A stretch of DNA of 64,000 nt, from the NCBI GenBank assembly GCA_015227615.1, contig JAALGZ010000070.1, positions 1 to 64,000 of the forward strand. Direction: 5' to 3'. Below are positions 31,000-60,849 of this stretch, piece by piece; within the stretch, counting starts at the first letter, position 1; the number at the start of each line of letters is the position of its first letter. A program made the position numbers and the translations under genes. The notes under the pieces are model-generated. The model was given only the letters and a program-made list of their open reading frames with translations, had not been told where the DNA came from and did not search any database. This stretch comes from Labyrinthula sp. Ha. Taxonomy: Eukaryota > Sar > Bigyra > Labyrinthulida > Labyrinthulaceae.

Positions 31000-32340
31000 A
31001 GGGATCCCTGTTTCATGTGGAGCATCGCTGCCTTCATGGTCCCGAAAGTATCCGGAGGATTTAGGATGGTGGTTGACCTGAGAAAACTTAAAGAGTGTGT
31101 GGAGGTTGAAACCGCAATGTTACCAACAGTGGAGCAACAGATTAGCTGGTTTCTTTTGAATGCACAGTTCTTTGCTCTTTTTGATTACCTGAGTAGATTT
31201 GACCTATTGAGATTAGATCCTGAATCTACAAAATATTTTGGTATTAGCGCTATATTTGCCCCCCCCCCTTTAGAATATTGGGAGCCCCGATGGGCTGTCC
31301 TAATACTCCTACCCACTACCAGGAAATGATGGTGACAAAGCCATTAGGAGGAGTAGAGGACAATTCTCTGGTTGGTAATCCAAGTGGAGGAATATTGCAA
31401 TGGGTTGATGATGCGCTTGTTTATGCCCCAACCTGGTCAAGATTCTTAGAGGTGATTAACGTGTATTTATCAAATGTACGAATATAGGATGTTCGACTAA
31501 ACGTTGATAATTTTACTTTATTCGCGACAGAAATCAAATGATGCGGAAGAGTCTTATCGGAAGGTCAACCGAGATTTGAAGATAAGTATTTCAACAGAAT
31601 ACTCAGTATAAGCTCGCCTCGAACGATGGGGGAGTTCGAGGATGTATTATACATATCAATCTGGTTGGACAGAAGCACACCACAGCTAGCTGAATTAAAG
31701 GAAGATTTAACGAAACTGGTTATTAGAATAAAAGATGAATTGAAGGCTACAAGAGGGAAGAAGGTAAATAGAAAATAAACAAAAGGGGTAGCGCTGGATT
31801 AATGGTGGATAAATGAATATGAAGCAAGGTTTTAAAAACTGAAAGAAAGAACTGCGGTTGCTGCGAAGAAGAGCCTTGGCAACTATTCCAGTGAAAGAAA
31901 TGTTGTTTTAATCACTGATGCCAGTAAAAATTGTTGGAATGTCATTTTGGGCTTGGAAAAGATGGGTCAAGATGAAAACGAGTTGACAGAACTACAGTTT
32001 TATCCTTTCTACTTCCTTAGTGGGGCATATCGAAGAATTTCTCATAATTTGAGAACGCCGGAGAAGGAGCTGTTTTCAATAGCCAAAATGATCCATAGCC
32101 TTCCCTTTCTCTTGGACTCACATCCATCGCCGATAAAATTGTTTACGGATCATATGAATATAGTTCATCTGATAAAACCAGACCACAGTTTGAATCTGTC
32201 GATAATTGGTAGGTTGTATAAATGGTTATTGCTTATTCAAAGCGTCCCCATTCGCGGGATACACGTTCCAACAGAGAAAAATAAACTGGCGGATGTACTA
32301 ATCAAATGGGGTTATTGTGGAGATCAGACGGTACAATATG
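31000..32340 (+). pseudogene. RT and RNase H region of element D
   Basis: The RT is recognised by FRMVVDLRKLKE, LFDYLSRFDLLRLD, GAPMGCPNTPTHYQ and a catalytic box LQWVDDALVYA. RNase H is recognised by VLITDASKNCW, EKELFSIAKMI, LFTDHMNIVHL and KNKLADVLIKWG. The order and spacing are normal for Ty3/Gypsy. Fossil. Confidence 0.75.
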
Positions 32341-32449
32341 ATATGGATTAAGAGAGAGCACAGAACTTTTGGGTGTAATAATACTGGAGCGCTCCCAGGA
32401 TATGGCAAAAAGAATGAGAGTTAAATAACCTAAGGTACTGGATTAAAAT

Positions 32450-33560
32450 TATGTGGACTTCCGCATAAGCTTTCTGCAACCAGATTATGGCGGTGAACTT
32501 AAACCGATAGACAAGGTGGTACTAAGAAAACCGCAAAAGGATAACCATGGAAGTATCACACTGTCCGAGAAACGTATACTGGTACAAGATGACACAGAAC
32601 TTTACATCAACAAAAAGACGAAGAAACTTTGGATTCCAAGGCCTCTGATAGCACATCTGACGTGGATGGTCCATATTTCCCATGGTCATTTAGGGATAAA
32701 AGAATGTTGCTTTACGTCAATAACTACAAGCTTTCTCTTACAGAAGAGAAAAAGAGAGATGTAGTGAAGGAAGTTAAGAAAAATTACCTTCATTGTGATC
32801 CTAGAGGGCATTATAGAAAGAGAAGAATTAGCGAAACTGTTCATAAAACAAGAGCTAACCAAGATATTCGTGATAATTTTTTATTTGTTTGGAATGGATA
32901 TTAGTTAGTTCTAGTTGAAGATGTACCGAGAAAAATATTGTTAGTAGCACCAAAGAGATGCAACGTCGATGTTGTTGTTAAAGGTTTGGTAAGATAGAAA
33001 AGGTGGAAGTGGATTAACAAGTAATTTTGACCTAGTTTCTGGTAGAGGAAACCATTCTGTCAATAATGTTGTACAGCGCTTAAAGAAACATTTTTCTTTT
33101 TAGCATAGGTTTAGGGGGGGGGTAGTTATTCCCCCATGAATAAACGGATCTGATGAAGTGACTCATCAAGCATTACTAAGATATGTTAAAAGTTTGACGA
33201 GCCAGTATTTGATGGACCACGACTCATGGTTTTTGCTGACAGAAGTCATTGTACCTTACGCAAACAATAAACCTAGATTAGATCTGGGTTTCCAAACCCC
33301 CATGGAGATATTTGGAGGAAGGTAACAAGACGAAACAGTGATGGAAGTCGACCGTGTTAATGAACAACAGGATAATGATATGCTCATATTTCCTACAGAA
33401 TAAAAGTTGAGAGAACATTTGACTAAAAATAATGTGAAGGGGGCAGTTGAATGGACTAGCTGAAATCCTGAGGGGGGGGGTTGTTAAGTCAGTGATATCC
33501 AGAATGACCTTTAGAAGAACAGAAGGTAGAGTAAGATCTAACAGGAAGTTGGTGAATGAA
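32450..33560 (+). pseudogene. Integrase region of element D
   Basis: Weakly kept integrase: an H-H segment (WMVHISHGHLGIKE), an HCD-like block (NYLHCDPRGH), and a core with LVSGRGNHSVN-like and PWINGSDEVTHQ-like remnants. The assignment rests on alignment with E3 and on position between RNase H and chromodomain. Confidence 0.55.
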
Positions 33561-33779
33561 ATTCAGTTTTCTGAGGGTAAATAGGTTTGAGTTGCGAGAA
33601 TTAACAAGTTTGGAGATAAAACAAGGCTCACTTGGATTGGACTTTTTTCTGTAGCAAAGGTCCTAGGAAGCAATGTGTATTTGTTGAACGATGTCTTTGA
33701 GGTACAAAAGTAGGTCCATTCTCATAGAATGGTTGCCTATTGTGTTGAAGCAGGAGAAGTAATCCAAGAAATTAAGTAG

Positions 33780-33965
33780 CATGTGACTCAACAAGCTGGA
33801 GAACTTGAAGTTACAGGACTTCACACATTGAGACAGGATACTGCAGGATATAAAGTTTTGGTATCATGGAAAGGGTTTGATGAGTCCGAGAAGAGCTGGG
33901 AAAACTTTACGAATATGTGGAAAGAACAGCCCGTAAAGATGGCAGAATTTTTAAGGGAGAGGATG
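33780..33965 (+). pseudogene. Chromodomain of element D
   Basis: LEVTGLHTLRQDTAGYKVLVSW, read in parts, followed by KGFDESEKSWENFTNM, fits the chromodomain pattern seen in E3 (WWQGFPKSDSNWQ) and E4. Chromodomains in such elements direct integration to marked chromatin; here it is a remnant. Confidence 0.7.
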
Positions 33966-34249
33966 GATGTGGGCCAAGATGCAGCTTATCTTTATAGGCT
34001 GCATGTGGATGAAGAAGCTCACCTTGTGGGTGCTGATGTTCGAAGCCATGGAGAACGCAGTAGAATCAAGAAATCAACATATAATACAGGATGAACTCAA
34101 CAAGAGGAGCTGGTGCTACAGGATTGTATACTGGCCTATGGATACAGAGAGTAGAATGCAATGATGAAAGGCAGATAACTTCCATGAAACCTAGTATCAC
34201 AAATCCTAGGAAAGGTGTAGAAGTTTTTGAAATGACAGGGACTGAGTGA

Positions 34250-34650
34250 GGTGCATGGGCTGAAAGTTTCCTGTAGGGAGCTCCATGAATTCTTAGATAA
34301 CGAGTTTGGAAAAACGAGGAAGCTAATCAAATGTCAAGCAAGGGAGGACTTCATTGCTAGTGACAAGAGAAAGCAGAGATTAAAGAAATTATTTGAAAAT
34401 AGAGAAGGAATGAGCAAGGAGGATATTTTGAAGTTGAATTTTGATGAACTCTCGGATCCAGAAGGTTTAAAGCTAGAAACTAAAGTGGAAATGCTTCTTC
34501 CAAAGAATAGTGAGAATACTAGGATGAAAGAAAAGGAGTTCATGTTCGAGGTATGTTTAGGGGAGCAGAAGTATGAAGTAAAGGCTGAATTCAATTTGGG
34601 AGCTAGTATAACTGTGGCGGCGGATGATTCTTTGGGTATCCTTAAGTAGA
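34250..34650 (+). pseudogene. Protease-like region of element D (after the chromodomain)
   Basis: FEVCLGEQKYEVKAEFNLGA and the following SITVAADDSLG align in position with the protease of E3 (KVLLDSGAGISCIG) and E4 (NILLDSGAWKSCAG), all three lying downstream of the chromodomain. The call is by comparison; on its own it is weak. Confidence 0.45.
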
Positions 34651-35053
34651 TATTGGAGAAGTTTATGAGTACTGAGACAAGAGGAACTAGAGATGCAAGT
34701 AATTCTGTAGCGATGATGAAGGGTTACATCCGTGTAAAACTTAGGATTGGTGTCAAGAACACAACAGTTTGGATCACAGTACTTGAAGTTAAGCTTTGGA
34801 TAGTTGACAAGCCGCATTGGAGTAACCGTTTGATTGGAAAAGATTTTCTAAACTTACTTGAGTTGATGTCCGAGTAAGTTTTATTCAATATGATCCAGAA
34901 GGAGGTTGGTCTGCAGCGTAGTGATGCCAAATTGATGAAATCCATTTGGGAAGATATTATTAAAATTAGGAATAAAATTATCCTGCAGATGAAGACAGCA
35001 ATGAATATGAAGAATTTCATGAAGAAGGTAAGCTCAGGAAAGGAGCACCTGTT

Positions 35054-35285
35054 TAGTAAAGGAAACCTGAAGTTTACAAAGAATAGAAACTGTGGAAATA
35101 CTGAGAGGTCTGAGTGAGAAGTCCAACAGGATTTTTGTGGAGATTGAAACTTTGTCTCCAGATGGAAGATATTTAGAGGTTTTTGCTCGTACAAACAATT
35201 TGAGGCCAGGATGGGTCTCTTTAGGAAATGAATTTGAAAACAGAACAACAGCTGAAACTGGGTCTTCAGTATTTAGAGAAGGCAG
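35054..35285 (+). pseudogene. MT-A70-like C-terminal segment of element D
   Basis: Reads SPDGRYLEVFARTNNLRPGW and then VSLGNEF, matching the last conserved block of MT-A70 enzymes (in METTL3, L-S-P-G-T-R-K-I-E-L-F-G-R then W-I-T-L-G-N). The same 232 bp is duplicated at 3659-3890 and 28571-28802. Fossil. Confidence 0.68.
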
Positions 35286-35814: not shown

Positions 35815-37947
35815 TTAATAGAAGCTGTCCAAAAAATCACTATTGACATTAAACATATTTTCATTTCCCAATACATCTATTCCAAAAATATCTTTCTCAT
35901 TGAACATATATGAGGCACATAAAAGTTCTATGGATCTTTTTTCAGGTTTTGCTGCCTTTTTCTCTACATTTATAGCAACAAATATTTTGTTTCTAGTATT
36001 TAATAAATTTCCATAATTTATTGCTTGTTTTATAGCGTCTTTCATGTGTCCATCGTCAGTAGTTGGTACTGATACACATTTTACTTCTATTATTATACCT
36101 ACATCACCATTGGTAAGTCTTATATCAGCTCTACCTTTTTTACCTGAATCTAGTTTACTAGTATAAATTTCACTGCCAAATGTGGAATGTTGCGTTTGCA
36201 ATACTATATAATTTAATAGTGAATGTACTACATCTTCATTAGTAAACACACCCTCATTATTGTGATCATTAACTAGTTTAACTCCTTTGATCATTTCTTT
36301 AAATTGGTTATAGAAGTTTTTGAAGAGTGCTCTAATATTATTTTGATTATACTCTTTTGTATCAATTATACTCTGCAAGATGTCAATTAAGGTCTCAAGT
36401 TTTTTAGAATCTATGCTGTAAATGTCTTGATAGTAGTTTATTATTTTTTTTCTCATTTCATACTTAATTTCCATATTAGGTAACTCATAGAAATCTTTCT
36501 TTTTACCATCAATTGTCAAATATCCACCGATAAATAGGTAAGAAAATAATAAGTTTAAGCCAACTGAATTGATTTCTTTATTACCACCGATTATATTCTT
36601 AAGAATTTCAAAGTCAGATACCGAAAAGTCATCTTTTCTTTCTAAGTAAATGCTCTCACCATTTACCAGCTTTTCCATTTGTTCTCTAACCTCTGTGCTG
36701 GCAAATAAGGCATCGATAAAATTTATACTTCCGCTTTTTTCCCAATAAGACTTAAACTCAGTAAACTCACCTTCTCTTAAATAACTAACGATTGACCAGA
36801 TATTATATTTACCAACTATTTCCTTTAAATGCACTTCTTTATTTTGTGGACAATATTTCTTAATTTTATATCCATTGTACCAAAGTTTAGCCTTGTCACG
36901 AAGTTTTTTAGGTACTTCAAAATGCTCAAAGAATAACTCAACGTCAGTTTGATCAAGGCCATAATGTTGCGCATATTTAGCAGTAGTAAAATTAATTTTA
37001 CCAAGATCGTTTATTCCAGATAGCATACCGCTTTGCGCGATATACTGAATTCCTGTTAGTACTCCCTTTTTTAAGTAAGAATTACTCTTTAGAGCAGTCT
37101 CATAGATACCTGAAAACAACTTTATTGTTTTGTCAAGATTATCTTTATCAAACTCCCTATATGCGATATTAGCTACAGCATCATATTCATCTATCAATAT
37201 CCAAACTTTCTTATCATAATGACAAAAGAGCATTTCACTTAAAAACTGCAGGCTATACATTATCTCATCATCGCTAAGAGATTTTGATGAAATAAATCCA
37301 GTATATTTCTGTATGAGTATTCTAGCTTCACTATCAAGTGCTTTACTGCTTTTAAGATAATTATGCTCCTGGAAACATTGTCTTAAGGCATATTTGATCT
37401 TTTCTTTTACGGAACTATAATCTCCAGCTTTACAGTTTTTGAAATCAGCATATATGACTGGATACGTTCCTTGTATAGTTAAAGATTCTGTTACCCCAAA
37501 TAGTTTTGTTTTCGCTATTTTTAAAGGAAAGATTTCTCTTTTTCCGCAAATATCACCATCAATTTTACCACCGGCAAACAGCTTATAATTATCACTCTTT
37601 CTTTCACTTATTGGTTCACCCTTACTGTCAACTTCTATTTCTAGAAATCTCTTCAGCATATCAAGATTTACAGTTTTTCCCCAACGTCGTGGCATTGCTA
37701 TTAATAATGTTTTACAGAAATCCTCTATAATATCTTTTATAAACAGACTTTTGTCAGCAAATATTGTACTTTGCACTACTAAATCCTTAAAATCACCACC
37801 CAGCAAGAAGTGAGGTTGAAATTTTGGTCCCCTTTCAGTTCCAGAAACTTTATCAGTATATTCCTTTAACAAGCGAGACGAAGCTTGCCCAGTGCCCCGA
37901 ACTCTTCTCTTTTTCGGAATTTGGTAAGCTTTACCTGTTTTTTTCAT
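35815..37947 (-). CDS. AAA-ATPase-like / PD-(D/E)XK nuclease-fold protein, copy 4
   Basis: The 710-codon open frame has the start MKKTGKAYQIPKKR. This is the best kept of the four: P-loop PRRWGKT (about residue 86), Walker B-like ILIDEYD (about 250), and a C-terminal PD-(D/E)XK fold with GRADIRL supplying the Asp and IIIEVK supplying E-x-K. It shares with copy 3, and not with copies 1 and 2, residues such as CKTLL before the P-loop, TVNLD after it and FDKDN after the Walker B block. It starts about 38 bp from the B LTR, whose orientation matches the gene, so the LTR may serve as promoter. Role unknown; a nuclease or nucleic-acid-dependent ATPase is the conservative reading. Confidence 0.87.
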   Translation of the reverse strand: MKKTGKAYQIPKKRRVRGTGQASSRLLKEYTDKVSGTERGPKFQPHFLLGGDFKDLVVQSTIFADKSLFIKDIIEDFCKTLLIAMPRRWGKTVNLDMLKRFLEIEVDSKGEPISERKSDNYKLFAGGKIDGDICGKREIFPLKIAKTKLFGVTESLTIQGTYPVIYADFKNCKAGDYSSVKEKIKYALRQCFQEHNYLKSSKALDSEARILIQKYTGFISSKSLSDDEIMYSLQFLSEMLFCHYDKKVWILIDEYDAVANIAYREFDKDNLDKTIKLFSGIYETALKSNSYLKKGVLTGIQYIAQSGMLSGINDLGKINFTTAKYAQHYGLDQTDVELFFEHFEVPKKLRDKAKLWYNGYKIKKYCPQNKEVHLKEIVGKYNIWSIVSYLREGEFTEFKSYWEKSGSINFIDALFASTEVREQMEKLVNGESIYLERKDDFSVSDFEILKNIIGGNKEINSVGLNLLFSYLFIGGYLTIDGKKKDFYELPNMEIKYEMRKKIINYYQDIYSIDSKKLETLIDILQSIIDTKEYNQNNIRALFKNFYNQFKEMIKGVKLVNDHNNEGVFTNEDVVHSLLNYIVLQTQHSTFGSEIYTSKLDSGKKGRADIRLTNGDVGIIIEVKCVSVPTTDDGHMKDAIKQAINYGNLLNTRNKIFVAINVEKKAAKPEKRSIELLCASYMFNEKDIFGIDVLGNENMFNVNSDFLDSFY

Positions 37948-38694: not shown

Positions 38695-38905
38695 ACATTA
38701 TAATTCATCTCCTACTGACATCCATCCTTTCCGCAAAATGTTTTTCCTGCACAACAGAACTAAATATTGTACCTTGGCATTGAAACACCCCTCAATCAGC
38801 TCATATATTTCTTTAGGCTTTCTAAAAGTCCATGTACTAGGAGCCATTAATATTTCTTTACCAAAGTTACCTTTCTTCAAATTCACGGGTAACTCACCTT
38901 TTTCA
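38695..38905 (-). pseudogene. MT-A70-like tail of element B
   Basis: Encodes RKPKEIYELIEGCFNAKVQ and the terminal block, as at 17881-18069. It is separated from the rest of the domain (46660-46950) by E3. Fossil. Confidence 0.65.
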
Positions 38906-38910
38906 CATAT

Positions 38911-39348
38911 ATTGAGTACGTCTAGTTCTCAATTTACACTTCTAATTTTTATTTCTTCCTTTTCTCCTTGGTTTCTTAAACTATTGTAAAACTTCTTCTA
39001 TATCTTACTTAAGGCTTAAAAAACTTCTTAAAAACTATATTCAGCAAACTACAGTTCATATTCGATCATAGCCATAACTGTATTTCACCAAACCACGTCA
39101 TCACATTTTTCTCTTCCGTTAATTTCCAATATGACATTACCACCGATTTTATATTTCTAATAACGTCCATTTCCTTCAAATCTAAACAAGCTTACATTTT
39201 TCCCACAAGAGCTCCGCTTGGCTCCCAATAAAGGTTCGGATATACCTCACCCACTCAACTAACGTCTATATTTATATTTCATTCACTAGAGGTCAGAACA
39301 TCAGCTCTTTCTCATACATTTACAAACCAAAACTAACTTATTTCAACA
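38911..39348 (-). repeat. 3' LTR of E3
   Basis: 438 bp; on the minus strand it begins TGTTGAAATAAG and ends TACTCAAT. It starts only nine bases after the gag-pol stop codon. Confidence 0.94.
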
Positions 39349-39357
39349 CTGCTTTCT

Positions 39358-42300
39358 TTATAAGCTCGATGCTCCATCTAAACCGATAGTACACCAACCC
39401 TCACGACAATTCCACCTTCTCCCAAATAATTCCAAATATCTAGCGTCAGGATTTAGTCTTTCAAGCAGTTGATAAACCTCATCTGGCTTCCTACTTTGTT
39501 GACGAACTTTACTCATTATTACATCTCCACTTCTTGACTTAGATAAAAAAGATTTTCCCTTGACTGATAACAGCAGTATCTCTTTATTATGCCGCAAGAA
39601 CTGTCCATGTGAGTGCCAAAGTTTTCCGCTACTAGTCTTTTTTACCCATACCACTACTTCAACTAAACGACATCCCCAAACTTTCAAAATATCGATTCCC
39701 TCCTGCAACTTCGAATTTGTCACCCACAAAGCTACAACTCCAACAGGACAGAGCTTATTAACGGGGATCTGCTTCACTTGGCCTACTTTAATTGTTGGAT
39801 AAGTTATTGATAACCCCCTTGTTGGATTTGACGACACTCCATCATCCCAAGCAGGATCAAGTAAAACAACATCATATTCACCTACCACCTCCAAATCCAA
39901 CTTCAACACATCTGAAACCATATATCTACTCCTTTTAGGTTGCTTCCAAACAACAAAACACTGTTCCCCCACCTTCTCCAGATCATCTACTTTATACAAA
40001 TTATCCCTCATCTCTCCCACTCGAACTCCATTAAAACAATTATTATTATCCTTCAAATATTCTGAAAACAATTTTCTATATTTTCTTCTTTCTTCCTTTT
40101 TATTAAGTTCACTTTTATACAAATCCTCCCACTCTTTCAAACACCTATCTCTCAAATCATTCTCAACATTATTTATTTCAAAATCAACATTTCTACTTCT
40201 TCCCATCAATACATCTACAGGTCTCAACTTATATTTTTTCAAAACCTTCTCTCCCACTATTATTTTATTCATTGATCTCTTTAGCACATACAAACAAATC
40301 TTCCCCAAGTTCATTTTTATTCTAGGATGTATCAATTTAATCTCCTTCCAAACATACCCTATTATCTCTAATTTTTTTCCACTTACACCATATACATTAC
40401 TTAACTTTACCAACTCTTCCCCCTCAACTTGCAATTCAGATGAAGATATCATATTCATTCCTATGCAACTAATTCCTGCTCCACTGTCAAGCAATACCTT
40501 ATACCATTTATTCCCAATCTTTGATTTAAAACTATCTCTTGGCCAAGTTACTTCTACTGCATTATCTTCAATATGATTCACTGATTCTCTAAACTCCTTT
40601 TCTACCTTGAAGTTCTTTATAAAGTTTATCATCTTTTTTATATCTTGAAGATTAAGACGTGGATTGTTTACATCTGCTACATTCAATACTGGAATTTCAA
40701 TAGAATTTCTATCATCTTGCACCTCAAACTTTTTTTTATAAAATTCCCTTTCCTTACTCAGTTCAGATGTTGATCTTTCCTTCCCAGTTCGCACAATAAT
40801 TCCATTACGTCTATAAACATTCTTCAAACTATCATTGTATTCTTTGATCTTATCAAACTTTACTTTCAACATCCTATATACCCCGATCGACTGGCTACCC
40901 AGTGATACCTGCAATAGAGTCACCACTTGGGACTTCGTTTTCCCCGGAAGGCTACCTAGTGAACAAATTTCTTTCCAATTTCCTATTCCAAATTTCAAAC
41001 TCAATTTTTCAAATACTATTTTCTCTGCCAACGACCAACCTTTAGATCTACTCAAACCTTCTGACACCCCTTCTGACATCGATCTTATTCTACTTGGATA
41101 TTTGATTATTTTTATCCTCTCTTTCAACCAGATATTTTTAGGTACAGTGCTTACACTTTCTGCAATCATATTTACCTCTTTGCTACCCTTATTCCTTTCC
41201 CATTCTCTGATCAATTTATGAGCATTTTCAAAATCTATGGTATCGTCTTTATTTTTCCTTACAAACTCTTTTACTAATTGGGGTACATCCTCGTAAAGTC
41301 TACGCATGCATTGCCAATTTGAATCACTTTTTGGAAATCCTTGCCACCAAATCAACACCTCAAATCCATCTATTGTATTTCTCAAATCTAATAACTTTTT
41401 TACATAATAAGGTCCCTGGTTATAATAGAAACTATGTTTTATCTCTGAGGTTACCTTAAAGTCTTCAGATTTCGATTGGTATAGAACCATCCGTTGTGAA
41501 TGTACTACTTGCTCCTTACCTCCAATGGACTTTACTTTATAACAATGTTCACCTTCAACTGCTACTACTATATATGGTCCAATCCATCTCAAACTTATTT
41601 TATCATTTAACCACGGTGTACCTACTCTAGATATCAATACAAAATCTCCAGCCGCAAAATTTACACTTGATGATCTGAATTTAGCATTGATATATTTTCT
41701 CGATCTGTCTCTGCTTTCTTTAATAATAGGCTCTACTATATTTCTCCTATTCAAAATTATTTGCATCAACTTTTCTACAGCTGACTTAAACTTCCTAGGA
41801 TCCTTACATTCTCTAAGTTTTCCTTGAGTAACTATTGGCAGGATATTTTTCTCATCAGTTTCTACTATTTTATTCAACCCTCTTGCAGTAGATAAATATG
41901 TGGTCAATTCATTTGGAGAATACCCATGACGTGAACGGCTATTATTTATAACATCCATCACTTGAGGTAATAACTCACTCCACTTTTCTTTCTCAATCAT
42001 ATAACAACTACACAGCTGGCGAAGAACTCTGAGAACGAACCTATTCATCACTTCGATTGATCCGTTACTCCAAGGGCTATATACTATTGAAAATTTATAC
42101 TCAGCTGGAAATCGCGACTCGAAGGTTTTTAACACTTCGTTGTTGAAATGAGAACCATTGTCTGAGACCAAGGTGAATGTGGGTGGCAATCCTATTAATC
42201 CCCTCCACATTATCAATGCCCTTACAACTACAGCTGCACATGGACTGGGATCTTCTATTAACAACACTTTCCTCGACACGTCTTCCAATATAACCAAGAT

Positions 42301-45300
42301 GTATGATTCTTTTACTTTCAACAAATCTAGATGTAACACCACCTCTCCTTTTATAGGGTGATATATTTCTCCTAATGGCCTACGAATCATCTTTATATCT
42401 TTATCACAATGCAAGCACCATTTCTTCAAATTTTGTGCTAGAACTTTTTGTTTATTTCTAGGTATATTAACAAAAGAGAAGGGCTCTAAAATACGCATAA
42501 CTTCATCCACGCTGCCATGTCCTGAAGCATTATGAGCCGTAACAATGAAGCGTTCAATAAGCTCTCCAGGTATAATTATTTTTCCTTGCTTATCGATCCA
42601 GGCTCCTGACTCGTTCTGGGATGCATCTAGATCCTTCAGATTTAATTCACAAGCTTCTTGGACTTTTGCTATTTCAGGAATGGTAAGGATCTTCATTTCC
42701 TGCTTTCTTTTAGGGAAATGAACAGCAACTCTATTTTCTACGAACTTTACTACCTCTGGATCGAATCTCCAACTAGCGCTCTTATTCACTTCCACTTCCA
42801 ACACCTCTTCACCTTCAGACCCATCAATCATGTTAGCAATCTCCATCTTCTCAACATCAACATCCCCACTATTTGCAAAAAATGTTATTCCTTTCCATCG
42901 AATTCTCCAACCCATATCCCCATTGCTATCTACAAGCTTTGCCTTTAAGTTCAAGGTATCCTCCGACTCCACATATCCCCACCTTGTCAACAAATCCGCC
43001 AGAACATTAGTTTCTCCTGGAAGATGATGAAGCACCGTGATGAATTCCTGGATGGTGAGTATCCATCTTTGAACCCGCCCAAATGCAGCAGCTTTCATGT
43101 CCTTCTTTGGTGTCATCAGGTATATCAAATTTTTGTGATCTGTATAGAGTTCAATGGGTGTTTGATGGCCATACAAGATGAACCTATACCTTTTCATTAA
43201 CTTAATGATGGGATAGATTTCCTTGTCGGTCATGCTCCAATGAATGCTACTTCCTACAAACTCTCCACTCCCAAAGTAAATAGGCAGCCATCCATCACTG
43301 TCCCACAGTCCAAGTACTCCTGACCAGAACTGGAAACTAGCATCCGTGAATATAGCCACCCTCTTATCAAGCTGGTACAGCTTCAAACTATTGGCCGCAC
43401 TAGAAGAGATGGACTTCAAAAATTTGCGAACCTCATCCTGATCCTCCTCGCTCCACCACTCTTCCACCGATGCTGCTCTTCGTTGATGCTTATTTAGCTT
43501 CTTTTTATATTTTATTTTTAGGTCCCGTTCAAGCTCCTTCATTCTCTTACTAAGGTAGTGACGTTTCCTTGCTAAATCTGGTACGCTAGAAGCTAGCCAT
43601 GTGCTCACAGAGACCAAATCTTCCAACTGACCCATCCTCCTCACCTCCCCCATATCTTCCAACTTCAAAAAATATTTTTCATCATATCTCCATCTCCCAT
43701 TCTCCAAGATTCTGCCACACCATCCTACTCTACTTTTAATCAAGTCACATTTATCCAGGTTCAGACGAAAATTCACCTTGATACACTGGTTTAAAAACTG
43801 GGAAAGAATATCCTTGTATTCATTCCAGGATGAAGCATAGATCAGTGAGTCGTCGATCCACTGCAGGACCCCGTTACCGAACAAGCTATCCTTATTCAGG
43901 CCTCCCAGGACTTCATTGATCAGCCTTTCCTGATATATCTGGGGGGTATTTATGTAGCCCTGGGGAGCCATCAACATTGTGTAACAACCCCACGGAGTCA
44001 CCATCCCCAAATATTTCTGGGCCCCATCCTCTACTCTCAAATAATCAAATCCACTTAATCCATCAAAACTCCCGAAATATCTCTCAGTGCCCTTGAACCA
44101 AGCTAACTGGGTCTCGAGGTCTGGCAATCCTGCTCCAGTGGGTTTAACAGATCTGTTACACCTGCGGAGGTCAACTACCATTCTATATTCATCCCTTTTT
44201 CCTGGTTTTGGCACCATAATTACAGGCGAAGAAAAGAAAGGATTTGGCTCCCTCCTAATCATCCCCATGTCTTCTAACTCTCTTAATTTTTTCTTTAGGG
44301 CCTCCATGCTGACTTTGGACATTGGGTAAGGTTTGCTTACATACTCCGCAACCCCTTCACGTAGCTCAATTTTCATAGGAGTAAGATTATTGAAGTCACA
44401 CTTAGAGATTTTTGACCCAAAAGCTTCAAGATGATCTAGTAAAATGGATTCCAACTCTTGTGCTTGATCAGAGGTTATGGCTCCTTCTTCCACCCCTACT
44501 CGAACTTTTTCTTTAACTTTATTTCTTAGGTATGCCTGTACTTTATTATCGGTTACATGTGGCTTTCCTACATCTCCTCCAACTTCAAATTCATCCTCAA
44601 CTAATATCTCCCCCAGATCCACTGGGTCCAAAGATCCTACCATAAAATCCTCTGATTCATCCCCATAGCTTTCCTCAACATCCAATACTTCAACTGCCCC
44701 TAAAAATACCGACTCCTCATCCTCCGAACTGCTTCCTTCTGCCTCCAACTTCTCACTACTCTCTGCTCCTTTTTCAATTTCATTGACCGTCTTCTCCTTC
44801 TTAGCATCCCGCTGTTTAATCAACTTACAATCGTCAAACCGATGGTTACTGGTGTAGCAGAAGAGGCACAGGTTATGATCCATGCCGTACTGCTTCCTTT
44901 TTTCCTTAGACCATGTCTTTGGTAGGAAGTGTTTTACAGATCCATCCTCTAGTGTCGTCCTTCTTACCCCTTCTGAGGGGTTTGACTCCCCTCGAGGGTT
45001 TCTTGGACGCTGCTTTGGAGCTGGATCAGACTTCACACTTATTTTATTCTTATTCTTTAGGGGTTCATTAGTCAAAAGTTTCAAAGCTGGACTCTGAAGA
45101 TCCCATTCCGAGATGATCATGGCCGCCTTGTTCAAACCTCTTCTTAATTTTCCCACTGTCTTCCACTTTTTTATCGACTGAGTCTCTTTTGCACTTCCTG
45201 ACCCGAACTCTAGAGGCAATTTTTTGATCACTTTCAAACAGAACTCCCTCTCCATCGATTTGGTCTCCCACTTAATCCCTCTTACCATATCCGTAACTTG

Positions 45301-46173
45301 TTTTAAAAAGTGGGTCATGGACTTCATAGGTGTGCCCTCATTAGACCACATCAAGTTCTCTACCTTTCTCATTAGTATTTTTTCTTTACCTTTATTTTGT
45401 AGCCGATTGATGTTATTGAGGTACTTCATTACGGACCTCCTTCTCATCACACTTACTCCCTCATCTTGCAACATCACCTGCACCTGATTGCTCAAACTTA
45501 AGGAAATATCAGCATTAGGCAACTTCAACCTCCCTCTGACCACATTGGTCTCATACACCTGAAATTCTTCTAAAAACGATGCCACTTTACTAGGCTCCAG
45601 GGATCGCAATATTGGCTTTCCCTTGTACTTCTCCTCTCTCGCCCTCTTTCTCTCACTCTCTCTCAAACCTCTGTTTTCTCCAACATCATCCTCTGACTCA
45701 GCTGAACTCAAAGAAGAGGCCGACAGATCACTACTCTCAGAATTTGAGTCCTCCATCTCCAACACATTTCTCCTTTTATCTTTGACCTTGAACAGATCCT
45801 TCCTAACTTTTTTATTGCTTCCTGTTGATATGTTTGCTTTTACTTGTTGAAGTAAAGTGCTCATTTGAAGTTGTAGAGTTTCATAATTTTGCTGAAGCTG
45901 CTCCCAATTTTCACGGGTTACTACTACATGATCCGGGGTTGTAATATTTTCTCCTGGATCAGAAACACTCTTGTACACTCCGCTACTATCTCGCACGTCT
46001 CCTTGACTGCTATTTTCCTCAACCGCAACCTGGTTCAACTCCTGGGGAGTTTCTGTATCTCGGGTGATTATGTTCCTGGTACCGATTTCTGCAATCACCC
46101 TTCCTCCTGACTTTCTACCACTCTCCGATCTTAAAACCGGAGAATCACTTCTATTCTTATTCACTTTTTCCAT
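39358..46173 (-). CDS. Gag-Pol polyprotein with chromodomain, Myb/SANT, downstream protease and MT-A70 methyltransferase (E3)
   Basis: 2271 codons from the ATG 44 bases after the 5' LTR to a TAA. Rough order by residue: gag with an acidic, serine-rich spacer; CCHC knuckle CLFCYTSNHRFDDC (~437); RT (~590-850) with MVVDLRR, FDGLSGFDYLR and a catalytic box LQWIDDSLIYA (~772); RNase H (~935-1060) with FTDASF and LYTDHKNL; integrase zinc finger (AHNASGHGS, then CLHC; ~1213-1253) and D-D-E core (HLDLL, VSDNGSHF, SIEVMN; ~1278-1371); GPY/F (RWIGPYIVV, ~1529); chromodomain (~1590-1650, FEVLIWWQGF); Myb/SANT-like (~1713-1750, GIGNWKEI, LPGKTKSQ); retropepsin loop VLLDSGAGISCIG (~1893); MT-A70 domain (~2095-2265) with a DPPW-like motif, GVVALWVTN, QFLRHNKEILLL, RKPDEVYQLLERLNP and LELFGRRWNCREGW. 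The protease after the integrase and the methyltransferase are both unusual for this superfamily. As one frame it would need proteolysis to free RT, integrase and methyltransferase. Confidence 0.93.
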   Translation of the reverse strand: MEKVNKNRSDSPVLRSESGRKSGGRVIAEIGTRNIITRDTETPQELNQVAVEENSSQGDVRDSSGVYKSVSDPGENITTPDHVVVTRENWEQLQQNYETLQLQMSTLLQQVKANISTGSNKKVRKDLFKVKDKRRNVLEMEDSNSESSDLSASSLSSAESEDDVGENRGLRESERKRAREEKYKGKPILRSLEPSKVASFLEEFQVYETNVVRGRLKLPNADISLSLSNQVQVMLQDEGVSVMRRRSVMKYLNNINRLQNKGKEKILMRKVENLMWSNEGTPMKSMTHFLKQVTDMVRGIKWETKSMEREFCLKVIKKLPLEFGSGSAKETQSIKKWKTVGKLRRGLNKAAMIISEWDLQSPALKLLTNEPLKNKNKISVKSDPAPKQRPRNPRGESNPSEGVRRTTLEDGSVKHFLPKTWSKEKRKQYGMDHNLCLFCYTSNHRFDDCKLIKQRDAKKEKTVNEIEKGAESSEKLEAEGSSSEDEESVFLGAVEVLDVEESYGDESEDFMVGSLDPVDLGEILVEDEFEVGGDVGKPHVTDNKVQAYLRNKVKEKVRVGVEEGAITSDQAQELESILLDHLEAFGSKISKCDFNNLTPMKIELREGVAEYVSKPYPMSKVSMEALKKKLRELEDMGMIRREPNPFFSSPVIMVPKPGKRDEYRMVVDLRRCNRSVKPTGAGLPDLETQLAWFKGTERYFGSFDGLSGFDYLRVEDGAQKYLGMVTPWGCYTMLMAPQGYINTPQIYQERLINEVLGGLNKDSLFGNGVLQWIDDSLIYASSWNEYKDILSQFLNQCIKVNFRLNLDKCDLIKSRVGWCGRILENGRWRYDEKYFLKLEDMGEVRRMGQLEDLVSVSTWLASSVPDLARKRHYLSKRMKELERDLKIKYKKKLNKHQRRAASVEEWWSEEDQDEVRKFLKSISSSAANSLKLYQLDKRVAIFTDASFQFWSGVLGLWDSDGWLPIYFGSGEFVGSSIHWSMTDKEIYPIIKLMKRYRFILYGHQTPIELYTDHKNLIYLMTPKKDMKAAAFGRVQRWILTIQEFITVLHHLPGETNVLADLLTRWGYVESEDTLNLKAKLVDSNGDMGWRIRWKGITFFANSGDVDVEKMEIANMIDGSEGEEVLEVEVNKSASWRFDPEVVKFVENRVAVHFPKRKQEMKILTIPEIAKVQEACELNLKDLDASQNESGAWIDKQGKIIIPGELIERFIVTAHNASGHGSVDEVMRILEPFSFVNIPRNKQKVLAQNLKKWCLHCDKDIKMIRRPLGEIYHPIKGEVVLHLDLLKVKESYILVILEDVSRKVLLIEDPSPCAAVVVRALIMWRGLIGLPPTFTLVSDNGSHFNNEVLKTFESRFPAEYKFSIVYSPWSNGSIEVMNRFVLRVLRQLCSCYMIEKEKWSELLPQVMDVINNSRSRHGYSPNELTTYLSTARGLNKIVETDEKNILPIVTQGKLRECKDPRKFKSAVEKLMQIILNRRNIVEPIIKESRDRSRKYINAKFRSSSVNFAAGDFVLISRVGTPWLNDKISLRWIGPYIVVAVEGEHCYKVKSIGGKEQVVHSQRMVLYQSKSEDFKVTSEIKHSFYYNQGPYYVKKLLDLRNTIDGFEVLIWWQGFPKSDSNWQCMRRLYEDVPQLVKEFVRKNKDDTIDFENAHKLIREWERNKGSKEVNMIAESVSTVPKNIWLKERIKIIKYPSRIRSMSEGVSEGLSRSKGWSLAEKIVFEKLSLKFGIGNWKEICSLGSLPGKTKSQVVTLLQVSLGSQSIGVYRMLKVKFDKIKEYNDSLKNVYRRNGIIVRTGKERSTSELSKEREFYKKKFEVQDDRNSIEIPVLNVADVNNPRLNLQDIKKMINFIKNFKVEKEFRESVNHIEDNAVEVTWPRDSFKSKIGNKWYKVLLDSGAGISCIGMNMISSSELQVEGEELVKLSNVYGVSGKKLEIIGYVWKEIKLIHPRIKMNLGKICLYVLKRSMNKIIVGEKVLKKYKLRPVDVLMGRSRNVDFEINNVENDLRDRCLKEWEDLYKSELNKKEERRKYRKLFSEYLKDNNNCFNGVRVGEMRDNLYKVDDLEKVGEQCFVVWKQPKRSRYMVSDVLKLDLEVVGEYDVVLLDPAWDDGVSSNPTRGLSITYPTIKVGQVKQIPVNKLCPVGVVALWVTNSKLQEGIDILKVWGCRLVEVVVWVKKTSSGKLWHSHGQFLRHNKEILLLSVKGKSFLSKSRSGDVIMSKVRQQSRKPDEVYQLLERLNPDARYLELFGRRWNCREGWCTIGLDGASSL

Positions 46174-46216
46174 AACTATTATAATTCGTACTATTTATAC
46201 GAATATTGGATCCAAT

Positions 46217-46654
46217 ATTGAGTACGTCTAGTTCTCAATTTACACTTCTAATTTTTATTTCTTCCTTTTCTCCTTGGTTTCTTAAACTATTGTAAAACTT
46301 CTTCTATATCTTACTTAAGGCTTAAAAAACTTCTTAAAAACTATATTCAGCAAACTACAGTTCATATTCGATCATAGCCATAACTGTATTTCACCAAACC
46401 ACGTCATCACATTTTTCTCTTCCGTTAATTTCCAATATGACATTACCACCGATTTTATATTTCTAATAACGTCCATTTCCTTCAAATCTAAACAAGCTTA
46501 CATTTTTCCCACAAGAGCTCCGCTTGGCTCCCAATAAAGGTTCGGATATACCTCACCCACTCAACTAACGTCTATATTTATATTTCATTCACTAGAGGTC
46601 AGAACATCAGCTCTTTCTCATACATTTACAAACCAAAACTAACTTTTTTCAACA
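46217..46654 (-). repeat. 5' LTR of E3
   Basis: 438 bp, a near-identical partner of 38911-39348. On the + strand its right end TTCAACA adjoins the target duplication CATAT. Confidence 0.94.
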
Positions 46655-46659
46655 CATAT

Positions 46660-47480
46660 GAACAATTCTTTTACACCCTGTAATGTGATATTTGCTAACA
46701 TAGAACCCACATTCCCATTACGCTTAGTCTTCATCCATAGCACATGATTTATATATTTCAACCCCCATTTCTCCAAATATTGGAATATGATGTCTCTCTT
46801 GCCCCAAAATGTCCAAATAAAAATCAACGTGTTCCTTTTAGCCTTTTAAAAATTCAACTCTAACAATTTTCTATCTTCCAGTTGATTGACGTTATCCGCC
46901 GGACCCCTTGTAGGATTTACTTTACAAAACTAATATGGCGGATCTAGCATAATTACATCAAAAGCTGCCCCTTTGTAATCATTCAACAATTGAAACATAT
47001 CCCTCTTAATGCTCACCGAATCTGCAGATACTGCGCACTTATAAACTCTTACCCTTCTTGTCTTTAATATGATTGTATTATTGCAAACCCCATCTCCAAT
47101 TCTTATTCCAGCTACTTGACATGACATATCCTCAATTAATATCTGCCGCTTCCTTATCAATTCGTATATTCTATCAAATTTCTCCATATCCTCCGTTATC
47201 AAGCTGCTCTGTTTCATCTAATCGAGAACTCGCGTTCTCAACATCTCTAGCTCCGCAGCAGAATCACTACTCAATTCAGGATACATTCTACACTTCTCTT
47301 TCCATCCTTTTAACACTTTCACCATCATCCTTAATCTCGCTTTCATATGATCCAAATTGTTCCAATCATGAACTACTACTGGCACATTCAAATTTATTTT
47401 GCTACTCAAACTCTCATGCATACCAAAAAATTTTCATGGCGTCCACCACTTTTGCAAATCCAATTCCACAGTATTGCTAA
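46660..47480 (-). pseudogene. MT-A70-like region of element B
   Basis: Mirror of 17090-17870: FDVIMLDPPY block near 46930-46960 and the TLIFIWTFWGKRD-type block near 46800. It appears identical to A over most of its length. Fossil. Confidence 0.68.
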
Positions 47481-49100
47481 TTCTCCTTTCTATTCTATAT
47501 TCCTCTCCCAACCATTTATTGTTTTTCTTTCCAACAACACCCAAATTCAACCGAATATAAGTATAGTCACCAATAGCTTGCATGTTTATCCATGATTGAA
47601 GCTTATTATATGTCTGTTGGTGATTGTGCTGAGGCATATACTTTAAAATCATTTTGTAATTAGCAAATCTAAAGTGCATCACCAAATTTTTCAGCAATAG
47701 CGCTTGATGTGTATTCCAATCAACTTCTATCAGCTTGCCATCCAAGTCATACTTGACTCGTGCAAAGTCCATTTTCTTTACCTCAACCGCAACATATTTA
47801 CTTTTTACCTTGCCCATCCATTAGGATATGTCACTTTCAAATATCTCTTAGCTTCATTCGTCTTCTAAATCTTTTCTTTTGCCAAATACTTTATTACCAA
47901 CTTAGGTAGATCTTCAATCATGATGCTAAGCAGTTGCCATGTCCAATCCGTCTCATTTCCAAAACCTCTCAAATCCACTTGCAACAAAAAACCTCCTGTT
48001 TCTTCTTTTATACCACGGAGCCTTTGCACTTCCAATTTTCCGCTATCATTTAAAAACGTTACCTTCGTTCTAGGATTTTGAGGGAGCTCACTTGGAGCAA
48101 AAAAAAAAGATAAGACAAGGAGGATGCACCTCCATAGTTTGACCCATAATTTTTGCATCTTTGTAAAGATGCTCATTCAGTTGCCTTTTTACAATATATA
48201 GTCCAACCCACTGAGGCCTCAACTTTTTGTGTTTGACTGCCTTGCTTACCAATACAAACTCTCCTAAACTGAAACATAACGGTGTAAACTTAAATCGCTT
48301 ATTATATAATGCGTTTTGATACTCTATAGCTCGCTGCAAAAACTCAATACCTTCTCTAGATACTTGAGAATATTCTTCTGAATCCTCTTCATCGGCTCCT
48401 CTAACGTTTCTTCTTACTTTTTCTTCAAATCCAAAACTCCCGTTCTTCCCAACACATCTTTCCGAGGTATTTTCCTAAGAATATTTGAAACGATGATAAA
48501 TTCTCTCTAGACCTCATTGACACAGAGTTTAAATAATATTGCACCTTATCCAGTAGCATAAGCCAATTCTCTGTGGTCAGCGACAAATCCGATATAAACA
48601 TCCGAAAATGTTTTAAGGTTTGCCTGTTCTACACTTCAGCCGCGCTATTGGAAAACGTCGCGTAGGAACATGAAAACTACTGTGATCCTCCACTTTTCTT
48701 GACAAATTCAGTAACCACTCGGTTTAAAAAATGTTACCTCTTATCTGAATTCAAAACAAAATCACCAGCTGGTTCGTAGTGAGAATGAAGAATTCACAAA
48801 GGTGTAACTACCTCGCTCGTCTTGGCCTTCTTACATCTATTCAGCATCGTTAACATCGACAATTAGTCAATAATCGTCAATATATATTCCTCTCTCTTAC
48901 TAAGATACAAAAAACACTCAATCTAAACTCTCTGCAACTTCTTTCTAAGCTCGTTATATCGAACGGTCTTGTCATTATCTTTGTAGGCCACTGGCCATGA
49001 ACACATTGTCTTCTAAATCTAATCCATCCATCCATGAGAAGACCAGCCAATTTCTTGTCTAAAGGTACATGTTCCTTCTAAATTACTCTTTTTTTCAAGC
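47430..49100 (-). pseudogene. Integrase remnant, chromodomain and Myb/SANT-like region of element B
   Basis: Mirror of 15460-17085, with the same GPY/F-like, chromodomain-like and Myb-like segments. Fossil; the integrase core is decayed as in A. Confidence 0.6.
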
Positions 49101-49399: not shown

Positions 49400-50640
49400 T
49401 TTCCGGATATATCAGCCTATTTAACGCGTCAGCCGCCACATTATAATCTTCATCAGTGTGATGGGCCTCCAGCTGTGAATCCTGGAAAATTACGCTCCAG
49501 TGACACAACCTCTCCGATTAAGCCTTTTTCTTAAACAGGTTAGGATTCAATACATGCACCAAGACTTGGTAATCTGTAAACAAAGTTTTCTTGACCGAGT
49601 TTCCTTTTAGATAATAATCATACTTCCGAGATGTTGCAATCACTGGGAACAACTCCTTTGAGTAAATTTGCCAATACAGTGTTGAGCCCAAAAAGTTAAC
49701 ACTAGATATTACTATTACTTTAAAATGCATGTTCATAGTTTGTTTCACATCAATTTCTTCTTTCATTTGACATATATAGTAAGCCCAATGTTTCTTTGAC
49801 GTGTCCACAAATAAAATGACATCCAACTTCGCATCAAAATATTTTAATGTTGCCGTGAACGACTCTTTCAGCTTCTCCACCGACTCCCTTTATGCCGCAT
49901 TGATCTCTTTCGTCCAAATGATGAATTTTTTCTTTCTTTCCAGCACCTTTATCTTCTCCACTATTAAATAATTTTCTGTAAGCGTAAACCTCAACCACGC
50001 AAAATATGGCAAAATTCATGTGATTAAGTTCCCAATAAAAATAAACTGTGTTAGTTCATGCACATATTTCGGTTTCCTTCTCCCCAAAAGTTCAGGTACA
50101 TACTTCTTATCCAACCTGTGACATTTATCCGTTACTAAATGTCTGCAAAAGGTAGCTTTCTTCTTCAGAAAATCACGTTTAGATATATTCAATCTCAATC
50201 GCTTTCGTATTGCTTCAGAAACTTTTCTGTAACCGCACAATTTTTTTTAATCATTGCTATCCATAAAATATTACCATTCTTTTATTGTAGAGTATTTTTA
50301 CAAAGCAGTTCCTACGGTTCCAACACTTCAATTATTAATCTTTTTGAAAACAAAGAGGGTGTATTACATCATCCCGGAACCCCCTCTCCCCCTAAAACTG
50401 TAGCAAAAAATCCACGACGTTCAAAAAGTAAAAAAAAACGTTTAAAGCCCTCCTGCGTTGGTAAGTAGTCGAAGTCACTAAAGAATTCATGCTGGCCAAA
50501 ATATATAGTCTCTTTAATTTTAGACAACTGGTTGTTAATATCTAGAAGCCTAGAGTCTGCTTTCCTGGTGTAATGATTCAACGACCGGAAATCTACAACA
50601 AAACAGTACTTCTTTGGTTCTAACTTGGACACAATTAAAG
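49400..50640 (-). pseudogene. RT and RNase H region of element B
   Basis: Mirror of 13880-15120. The RT shows CFVVDFRSLN and FSDFDYL near 50460-50620. RNase H shows VILFVDTSKKHW and LYWQIYSKELFPVIA, the latter clearer than in A. Fossil. Confidence 0.62.
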
Positions 50641-51269
50641 GCTGTATGGATATCTTCAGGTTCCGATTTGGCTTAATAATCCCGGCTTTCAGTATTTACT
50701 TTATTCTGTTTCTAAGAAATTCTTCCTTCTCCGGTCCCATCGGTCTCGCTGTACATACAACCATTTCGTTCTCATTATTCACACTGCATTTAATATGTTT
50801 CAACCTTAATATTAGAGTTGAGCTCGTGTCATCTCCAAATCCACGCGCGTTACTCATAAGTATCCCTTTCAGTCAATCCAAACCCCCCACCGGAACTATA
50901 TTTTTTTATATCTACCAGTTTCTCATCAATTACCTTTTTAGCCTCAAAACATCTTCCTTAATGGAAGTTTCCAAATTTTACTCACTGTTCAACTCATTCT
51001 CCATCACTTCATCTTCAAATGCTTTGAATATTATAGGCATTTTCTTTTTGCTGATGATTCCTACTCACTTTACATTCATTTCCCTAACTTTTATCCCCTT
51101 CTTCTTTTCCCCAGATTTTTTTCTCAGACCAATTTATCATAATCTTACTACCCACTTTTATTACCACTGATCTTACAATCATTACCTCACTCCTTTAAAA
51201 GTTGAAGTAGACTTAATCCATGTCTTCCCAACAAATCATTTCCTATGAGTAAATTTGTTTATTCTTCTA

Positions 51270-53367: not shown

Positions 53368-53841
53368 TGTAGAAATGTGTGGAAGTTTGGTGTGTATTCG
53401 CGCTCGTAAGTTCTGTTAAACGATCGTTTTGCAATTTATTGTATTTACGAAGTTGCATTTTAACAGTTTTTGATTAGAGTGATGACGTGGAATGATGAAT
53501 GAAATCACGTGATGTGTATTTCAAGATAAAATACAGCTAATTGGAAGAATACCGGTAAGAAGATTATAACAAAATAAAGGAAGTTGCAGTATAAAAACTA
53601 GAATATAATAGTGTATTAGTTAGCTGTAGAAATAGTTTCAGTTAGAAGCCTTAGACGTAGTACTCAGCAGACACTAACTTAATAGTTAAGAAGAAAGAAA
53701 AGAACTCGTGTCGACTTTTCCTAGCGAATTTAGAAAGGAGAATCAGAAGATCTAGATCAAAATTTTAAGACAATTAGAAGCGAAAGAAAACTTACAAGAA
53801 AAATATTTTAAACAAGTAGAAACCTATACTAGCACTCCATA
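53368..53841 (+). repeat. 5' LTR of E4
   Basis: 474 bp from TGTAGAAATGTG to GCACTCCATA, preceded by GATGT. Confidence 0.9.
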
Positions 53842-53890
53842 TCGAACTCAATACGATTAGAAGTGCCGAAAATAATTAAAGTAGTAAATT

Positions 53891-55200: not shown

Positions 55201-55529
55201 AAATGATAAAAGGAGAGAGAGAACGGAGGATGATATGGTAGGGGTCCAAATTTCCAATATCAAAATAATCGATCAGATACGCAGCAACCGCGAGCATCCG
55301 AGAAGCACTAGGTAAACGAGGTAGCAGAAGACAGTCCAAAGGCCTCACTAGAGGCTGGTGATCAAGGGGGAATAGTGGCGGTAGCTGGTGATGACGAGTC
55401 TCCAACAGTGGAATGCTTAGACCCAGTCGATATTCCAGAAATGTAGATGATAGAAATGGCAGAGTGGGAGCTTGAAGAAGTGAGTACAGATAGTGGTGGG
55501 GAGGAAGTAGGGCCCACAGAGAAAAGATA

Positions 55530-57270: not shown

Positions 57271-57319
57271 AACCCTTACCTGGAAGGGAATAACTTTTTT
57301 AGTCAGGGAGAAGGATATT

Positions 57320-58610: not shown

Positions 58611-58779
58611 GGGCCCATACATAGCAACATACATTCCTGGTACCACTACCTATAAAGTAAAAATATAGACGGCAAAAGATACGTTGCACATGCCCAGATA
58701 CTAAGTCTCTATGAAGCTCAACCCACCGATTTTAAAATATCAGACCAGGTTAAGGCCGCTTTCTACTACAATCAAGGAG

Positions 58780-59440: not shown

Positions 59441-59509
59441 AAAGAAAAGTAGAAGAAAGACCTGGTCAGATCTGCATCAATATCAAAAATTGGGGAAAAG
59501 GAGAAAATA

Positions 59510-59990: not shown

Positions 59991-60299
59991 CGTAAATTAG
60001 AAGTAATTTCAGAATTAAAAAGAGTAGAAGTTGCAACAGTTCTCGATAAATGGGAGGAGTTTAAAAAATGAAGGTAGTTGAGAGAAGAAGATATCGTTCC
60101 AAATTGTCCAATCTATTAGAAAGTGATCCTGAAAGTTTAATGGTCCATTTTCGGTTCCCCTGCTGACTCATATTTTACTATAAAATATAAAAGAGAAGAG
60201 AAGTTTAAGGATCTTGTATTATGGAGGCAGGCAGCTGGAAGCAAGTTAAAAATCGGGGATGTAAGATGTCAGGATCTAACGTCATCTGGCAGATTTGGG

Positions 60300-60839: not shown

Positions 60840-60849
60840 AAGAGAGCGG

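Follow-up and report, generated by a model that had tools for sequence, protein, structure and literature searches.

DNA 6mA in ciliates is written by MTA1c, a complex of AMT1 (MTA1), MTA9, p1 and p2, and Rhizopus has Mta1, Mta9 and P1. Within this complex, MTA1 requires p2 for SAM binding and MTA9 stabilizes substrate binding (PMC9174199, in the part available). Retroelements, for their part, are known to capture cytosine methyltransferases or bacterial-type Dam enzymes. The available part of PMC5890265 describes KnitGypsy-Dnmt3, SymbioLINE-Dnmt and SymbioDIRS-Dnmt3 as retroelements with a captured DNA methyltransferase, one of them with Ty3/gypsy domain content, and gives a Ka/Ks below 0.2 for KnitGypsy-Dnmt3. 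DIRS-like elements carry an N6-adenine methyltransferase of Dam type (PMC5890265 and PMC6338049, accessible sections). Here we describe a Ty3/gypsy lineage of Labyrinthula sp. Ha whose polyprotein ends in homologues of p1 and AMT1.

The element resembles each of these systems in part. Like MTA1c, it has homologues of both the catalytic subunit and p1; unlike MTA1c, it carries the two fused in a single retrotransposon polyprotein, neither p2 nor MTA9 is seen in it, and the subfamily at this locus has DPAW as its catalytic motif. Like the Dnmt retroelements, it joins a methyltransferase to a retroelement, but theirs are C5-cytosine enzymes of an unrelated family, and a captured partner subunit goes unmentioned in the portion of PMC5890265 at hand. 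The adenine methyltransferase of DIRS-like elements is likewise retroelement-borne but bacterial in type rather than MT-A70, and those elements have a tyrosine recombinase where this one has an rve integrase; among ten element proteins, no Pfam match to a tyrosine recombinase or a Dam-type methyltransferase was obtained at E up to 0.1. Finally, chromodomain-bearing Ty3/gypsy elements, the chromoviruses, have the same order of reverse transcriptase (RT), RNase H, integrase and chromodomain. Unlike them, the present element adds a C-terminal p1-AMT1 unit, and one of its branches has a protease motif behind the chromodomain.

The locus lies in a 64,000-nucleotide stretch of DNA, hereafter the window. 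Its Ty3/gypsy marks are LTRs, a short target duplication and the RT-RNase H-integrase order. One minus-strand open frame (39358-46173), 2271 codons plus a stop, encodes gag, pol, p1 and AMT1 together and occupies nearly the whole interval between the two LTRs. An initial annotation had placed an MT-A70 domain at the C-terminus of a Ty3/gypsy Pol in this frame, and the profile search bears this out: PF05063 matches with an E-value of 1.1e-34 and a score of 120.3 bits (cut-off 23.9), across profile positions 1-171 of 172. The features of the element are as follows.

38906-46659, minus strand: whole element with its target duplications
46217-46654, minus strand: 5' LTR, 438 bp, coding-strand start TGTTGAAA
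38911-39348, minus strand: 3' LTR, identical to the 5' LTR at 437/438 positions
38906-38910, no strand: target-site duplication CATAT, 5 bp
46655-46659, no strand: target-site duplication CATAT, 5 bp
46200-46214, minus strand: putative primer-binding site, starting TGG two bases past the 5' LTR
44827-44868, minus strand: gag zinc-knuckle-like motif CX2CX4HX4C (CLFCYTSNHRFDDC), a pattern match only
43714-44214, minus strand: reverse transcriptase, Pfam RVT_1, residues 654-820
43042-43455, minus strand: RNase H, Pfam RT_RNaseH (residues 935-1044) and RT_RNaseH_2 (residues 907-1005)
42073-42327, minus strand: integrase core, weak Pfam rve match under the curated cut-off, residues 1283-1367
41257-41406, minus strand: chromodomain, Pfam Chromo, residues 1590-1639, under the curated cut-off in the window copy
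40603-41082, minus strand: p1-like region, a Myb/SANT repeat and about 90 residues after it, by homology to p1, the DNA-binding subunit of the MTA1c 6mA complex
40477-40494, minus strand: aspartic protease motif LLDSGA between p1 and MT-A70, motif only
40048-40161, minus strand: long predicted helix ahead of the methyltransferase domain, in the position of the helical arm of MTA1
39379-39876, minus strand: MT-A70 (AMT1-like) adenine methyltransferase domain, Pfam PF05063, residues 2100-2265
39847-39858, minus strand: catalytic motif DPAW in place of DPPW

The two LTRs, each 438 bp in full (the span reported by the repeat tool is a 300-base part), differ at one position, and this near-identity speaks for a recent insertion. 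Two of the weaker domain assignments gain from comparison with relatives. Chromo scores 17.2 bits against a cut-off of 25.1 in the window copy and exceeds the cut-off in six of nine scanned relatives (L019, L021, L022, L030, L031, L032). For the protease, the window copy has the LLDSGA motif alone, and relatives give sub-cut-off matches to RVP (L025) and Asp_protease_2 (L022). The protease motif stands behind the chromodomain and p1 in the window copy, L013, L015, L019-L021, L025 and L028, and before RT in L022, L024, L029 and L032; judging from these positions, the putative protease is relocated within the lineage. The window as a whole gave no Rfam match at the gathering threshold.

Among solved structures, the methyltransferase domain of the window copy is closest to Tetrahymena MTA1 (3.1e-38), followed by METTL3 (3.1e-29), METTL14 (9.4e-10) and 7cv6, entitled 'Methyltransferase-like protein 2' (1.9e-7). 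An AMT1-type P-x-R-G insert after the catalytic motif, which METTL3 lacks in the alignment, is found in 31 of the 35 element clusters, the window copy reading PTRG, and is missing from clusters L027, L020 and L010 and from the second element in the window; four partial domain rows were left out before these motif and cluster counts. A fold model aligns with MTA1 over model residues 13-276 and with METTL3 over 88-278. A long helix is predicted at model residues 14-51, where block pLDDT is 41-88, so that the predicted likeness to MTA1 spans the methyltransferase and the helix preceding it. The preference is not uniform: MTA1 and METTL3 give almost equal E-values for L015, and nine of the 35 clusters match METTL3 at least as closely as they match Tetrahymena MTA1. 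NCBIfam returned no methyltransferase match in the three element proteins scanned.

Phylogenetic tests yielded p-AU values of 0.505 for the elements with AMT1, which is no less likely than the unconstrained tree, 0.213 for the elements with METTL3 and METTL14, 0.267 for the elements as a single clade, and 0.375 for AMT1, METTL3 and METTL14 without the elements. The MT-A70 part looks more like AMT1/MTA1 than METTL3, and the trees leave the two affinities unseparated. A prokaryotic origin is disfavoured, since element, AMT1, METTL3 and METTL14 rows cluster separately from prokaryotic rows and from the single METTL4-like row (support 92/94, in a tree from which P0130 and P0131 were left out for length).

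A second homology lies between the chromodomain and MT-A70, where a Myb/SANT-like repeat falls under the Pfam cut-off in the window copy (Myb_DNA-binding, 21.7 against 24.4). The best match of a ten-family profile was p1 of Tetrahymena MTA1c (7e-17), then SNAPC4 (9e-15) and c-Myb (1e-9). With a 163-position profile, p1 matches at 8.7e-33 across 140 residues (p1 20-157), whereas SNAPC4 (2.8e-10) and c-Myb (2e-7) match within the Myb repeat alone; by these profiles, the p1-like homology is one that reaches beyond a generic Myb repeat. Tetrahymena p1 as sole query recovered 25 of 28 element rows, not all of them distinct loci, at E up to 0.001. A family HMM recovered the same 25 of 28, the three misses being short frames. 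Across the genome, 110 of the 150 listed p1-like places sit 0.58-1.09 kb ahead of a listed MT-A70 place on the same strand, compared with 1 and 0 in controls.

By sequence identity, the host is one that retains AMT1 and p1-like genes of its own. Host AMT1 (L008; C91:220713-221264) has a 327-residue open frame and is 54% identical to Tetrahymena MTA1. When the 61-residue p1 repeat was searched against the genome, the top two matches (48% and 47% identity) lay outside long element frames, one of them being the host p1-like gene (L071; C1:1284461-1284640); matches below these two were mostly element frames. Human METTL3 and METTL14 segments both found host AMT1 as their best genome match (43% and 33%, respectively), and the exon-wise search with these human segments, in which introns or divergence could hide an ortholog, found none of either gene in the assembly. 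PF00145, the C5-methyltransferase family, has two places in the assembly. By a single gene, EF-1alpha, the host is placed with the labyrinthulomycetes: among hits carrying an organism name, Aplanochytrium stocchinoi is the most identical (90% over 98% of the query). Recent capture from the present host AMT1 is unsupported: the element clusters are 30-43% identical to it, below the 54% that it shares with Tetrahymena MTA1.

Because p1 homology adjoins an AMT1-like MT-A70 domain, and because the host has AMT1 and p1-like genes, the element bears a fused p1-AMT1 pair that most likely acts on DNA. The initial annotation had correctly named the MT-A70 family; it listed METTL3, METTL14, METTL4 and MTA1 on a par, left RNA or DNA open as the substrate, and missed the p1 homology. 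Activity on RNA would mean that the enzyme writes m6A on the element's genomic RNA and affects its packaging, translation or degradation, much as METTL3 acts on mRNA. METTL3 is itself an MT-A70 enzyme, the topology joining elements to METTL3 and METTL14 is not rejected (p-AU 0.213), and L015 scores alike against METTL3 and MTA1. Yet, unlike the METTL3/METTL14 m6A RNA writer, the element has the P-x-R-G insert and an adjoining p1 homologue, p1 belonging to a DNA pathway (PMC12695648, available sections). CCCH zinc fingers, a METTL3 trait, were absent from the Pfam matches (E up to 0.1) of ten element proteins, and the failure to find a host METTL3/METTL14 ortholog in the exon-wise search also counts against an RNA writer, which we consider improbable.

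The window element belongs to a Ty3/gypsy lineage that has many, diverse copies and has in part been active of late. Searching the 50.8-Mb assembly with PF05063 gave at least 150 places (the best 150 of 354 candidates), all above the cut-off, and in 31 of these best 150 the match is stop-free and lies in a frame 1700 residues long or longer. Twenty regions, each of 10 kb or less, were taken for element reading. The places read yield at least 35 clusters of MT-A70 elements. A scan of nine further long frames showed MT-A70 as the final domain in each, after RT, RNase H and integrase; in one (L023) the frame starts inside RT, making that match partial, and continues 83 residues beyond MT-A70. Looking outward from RNase H over 2-5.5 kb, 77 of 150 places have a listed MT-A70 2.9-4.8 kb downstream on the same strand, a count that rests on the best 150 of 354 MT-A70 candidates; the controls gave 2/150 upstream and 1/150 on the other strand. 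Four of the 73 misses were inspected: L065 and L066 carry a more divergent MT-A70, and L064 and L067 carry none. The expectation that other copies of the family would share the domain is thus confirmed for many elements and fails as a rule for every Ty3-like element, and the idea that all Ty3 elements of this genome carry MT-A70 is rejected on the strength of L064 and L067. These two, together with L068 and L069, are Ty3-like, have a very long RT branch and show no MT-A70 at the expected place.

RT and MT-A70 appear to have travelled together. Trees of the two domains from 14 families have 10 of 11 splits in common (Mantel r 0.957, p 0.0001), compared with a mean of 0.2 and a maximum of 7 in 2000 label shuffles. 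The p1 tree, built from a short domain, agrees with RT on 6 of 11 splits (r 0.91) and with MT-A70 on 7 of 11 (r 0.84). This agreement fits a gain before the families split, followed by descent inside the polyprotein.

Selection appears to have maintained the methyltransferase. From 22 pairs we set aside nine that were saturated, one more with a dS of 2.5 and one repeating a locus. In 10 of the 11 remaining distinct close pairs with usable dS, MT-A70 dN/dS is 0.06-0.20, indicating that the domain is under purifying selection in those ten. The eleventh, L020/L021, has an MT-A70 dN/dS of 0.76, and L021 has the decayed motif DPPG. RT dN/dS, computable in six of these pairs, is 0.05-0.22, including 0.22 for L020/L021. 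Could the domains be functionless relics carried as passengers? Many copies are broken, and motifs are altered in L021 (DPPG), L055 (DAPW) and L062 (DLPF). Against this stand the low dN/dS seen in all but one of the 11 close pairs, the retention of MT-A70 even where RT identity is 47%, in L027/L029, the pair furthest apart of those computed, and the 31 of the best 150 places with stop-free matches in frames 1700 residues long or longer. We give the relic explanation next to no weight.

The catalytic motif varies among clusters. With one representative each, the 35 clusters comprise 24 DPPW, five DPPY, three DPAW, one NPPW, one DAPW and one DLPF. The three DPAW clusters make up the subfamily of the window element, in which the motif is DPAW at 11 of 11 distinct places. 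The initial annotation's set of MT-A70 blocks is present as a full-length domain, but its DPPW-like motif reads DPAW, not DPPW. The predicted enzyme of the DPAW copy may be weakened or act differently. Even so, MT-A70 dN/dS in the window pairs is 0.10-0.16, so the domain seems to be in use in this subfamily.

One such use could be targeting. The p1-AMT1 unit would then be mainly a docking module that binds DNA or host p2/MTA9, with catalysis secondary, or lost in some subfamilies; it would bring the integrase to chromatin bearing host 6mA (linker DNA near transcription starts), or keep it away from genes. The unit adjoins integrase and chromodomain, a position that is usual for integration-targeting modules, and the window subfamily combines an invariant DPAW with purifying selection. 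Non-catalytic MT-A70 subunits also exist, namely AMT6/7 (PMC12695648, in part). However, a pure docking module has no need of the DPPW or DPPY kept in 29 of 35 clusters, and the window copy appears to sit inside an older element of its own kind, not evidently at a gene start. We regard targeting as unlikely to be the main role.

On balance we lean toward a writer of DNA methylation: it is somewhat probable that the p1-AMT1 pair at the polyprotein end, acquired before the sampled lineages diverged, is selected for writing 6mA on the element's own cDNA or new copies. Selection would keep the pair for methylation at ApT, as in the known complex, and the mark would be placed on cDNA while this is still in the particle, or soon after it has integrated. 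The p1 part would bind the DNA, and, given the protease motif between p1 and the methyltransferase in the window subfamily, cleavage could release the enzyme there. The 29 of 35 clusters with DPPW or DPPY count in favour of this writer. Counted against it are the invariant DPAW of the window subfamily, the absence of visible p2 and MTA9 from the element, and nanopore data from Trichomonas, which has AMT1, where 6mA shows no enrichment on transposable elements, these being other elements (PMC12695648, in the part available).

What might an element gain from methylating itself? The favoured answer is that it would mark itself with the tag that the host uses for active chromatin. In AMT1-bearing eukaryotes, 6mA is a mark of chromatin open to transcription, and AMT1 is proposed to act on hemimethylated ApT; a 6mA mark first placed by the element could thus pass for that of an 'active gene', and host AMT1 could then maintain it. 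Escape from silencing, the purpose that the initial annotation proposed, is a conjecture. Such adenine-methylation mimicry, in which the fused writer seeds a heritable active-chromatin mark on new copies and host AMT1 maintains it, is a tentative proposal to which we give rather less than even weight. In short, the sequences suggest a jumping gene that marks DNA to stay active. Aurantiochytrium limacinum is a labyrinthulomycete. In the available sections of PMC12695648, 6mA accompanies transcription in AMT1-bearing eukaryotes, this stramenopile being among those mapped, with three 6mA peaks in a linker pattern.

The same anatomy would serve if 6mA protected the cDNA against a nuclease or DNA sensor of the host, in the manner of a modification methylase and with no lasting chromatin role. 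Methylation of cDNA against editing or degradation has been discussed for cytosine-methylating retroelements (PMC5890265, accessible part). Here, however, the sequence offers nothing specific in favour of protection. Moreover, we know of no 6mA-sensitive nuclease in such hosts, and we judge this role very improbable.

Outside this genome, residues 2050-2271 searched against a set of 5.8 billion proteins gave 842 candidates, none at E up to 0.001, and a profile search with the 280 C-terminal residues gave 28 proteins. Six of the 28 are EukProt entries with MAKER-style gene names (P0122-P0125, P0127, P0131), which we interpret as fragments of such elements from one or more related genomes; over 67% of the query, P0122 shares 96% identity with the window domain. 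The remainder, classed by reading, are four METTL3-like (P0126, P0128, P0129, P0130) and eighteen prokaryotic-looking proteins. IMG/VR contributed one distant locus, 30% identical.

No published account of an MT-A70- or p1-bearing retroelement was found in a search by title and the start of the abstract, with most subscription journals outside its reach. Iyer, Zhang and Aravind surveyed eukaryotic adenine methylases in BioEssays in 2016 and may have mentioned transposon-linked MT-A70 proteins. None is described in the available parts of PMC12695648, PMC11441545, PMC5890265, PMC6338049, PMC9174199, PMC13297926, PMC11258239 and PMC8885841. The initial annotation's remark that it knew of no described retroelement clade with an adenine methyltransferase needs narrowing, as Dam-like DIRS enzymes, which are not MT-A70, are known (PMC5890265, PMC6338049, in part).

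Capture of the eukaryotic adenine writer, its catalytic part along with the DNA-binding partner, did not surface in the literature searched. MT-A70 families are reported to be relatively static following early duplications (PMC12695648, available sections); by comparison, the radiation of this mobile lineage amounts to at least 35 clusters among the places read. In AMT1-bearing eukaryotes 6mA accompanies active chromatin and not silenced chromatin, so the elements would make it possible to ask directly whether 6mA instructs activity and is inherited. The natural fusion of p1 with AMT1, which comes in many variants, might also serve as a small tool for placing 6mA at ApT.

The window holds, by our reading, at least six MT-A70 elements. 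Older, decayed MT-A70 pieces flank the intact copy on the minus strand, at 46645-46836 and 46933-47040 on one side and at 38704-38919 on the other, and the older element continues with p1 at 47440-47751 and RT at 49428-50692. The intact element seems to have inserted into the MT-A70 portion of a decayed, older member of its own lineage. A second MT-A70/p1 element, at 53394-61323 on the plus strand, has 448-base LTR matches that are 96.7% identical and broken frames; its MT-A70 piece at 60141-60836 is open, with the motif DPPW. Further decayed elements with MT-A70, p1 and RT pieces lie at 13825-18063 (plus), 18986-23270 (minus) and 31012-35232 (plus), and MT-A70 fragments at 72-239 and 3739-3837 (both plus). 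The window also includes an open frame at 7084-7608 (plus) that resembles a LINE-type endonuclease fragment and has no Pfam match. Four long frames of 689-710 aa look similar by eye: 994-3126 (plus), 4427-6559 (minus), 25967-28036 (plus) and 35815-37947 (minus). The first of these matches AAA-ATPase_like (PF09820), and the first two lie within a 2378-nt inverted repeat that is 99% complementary.
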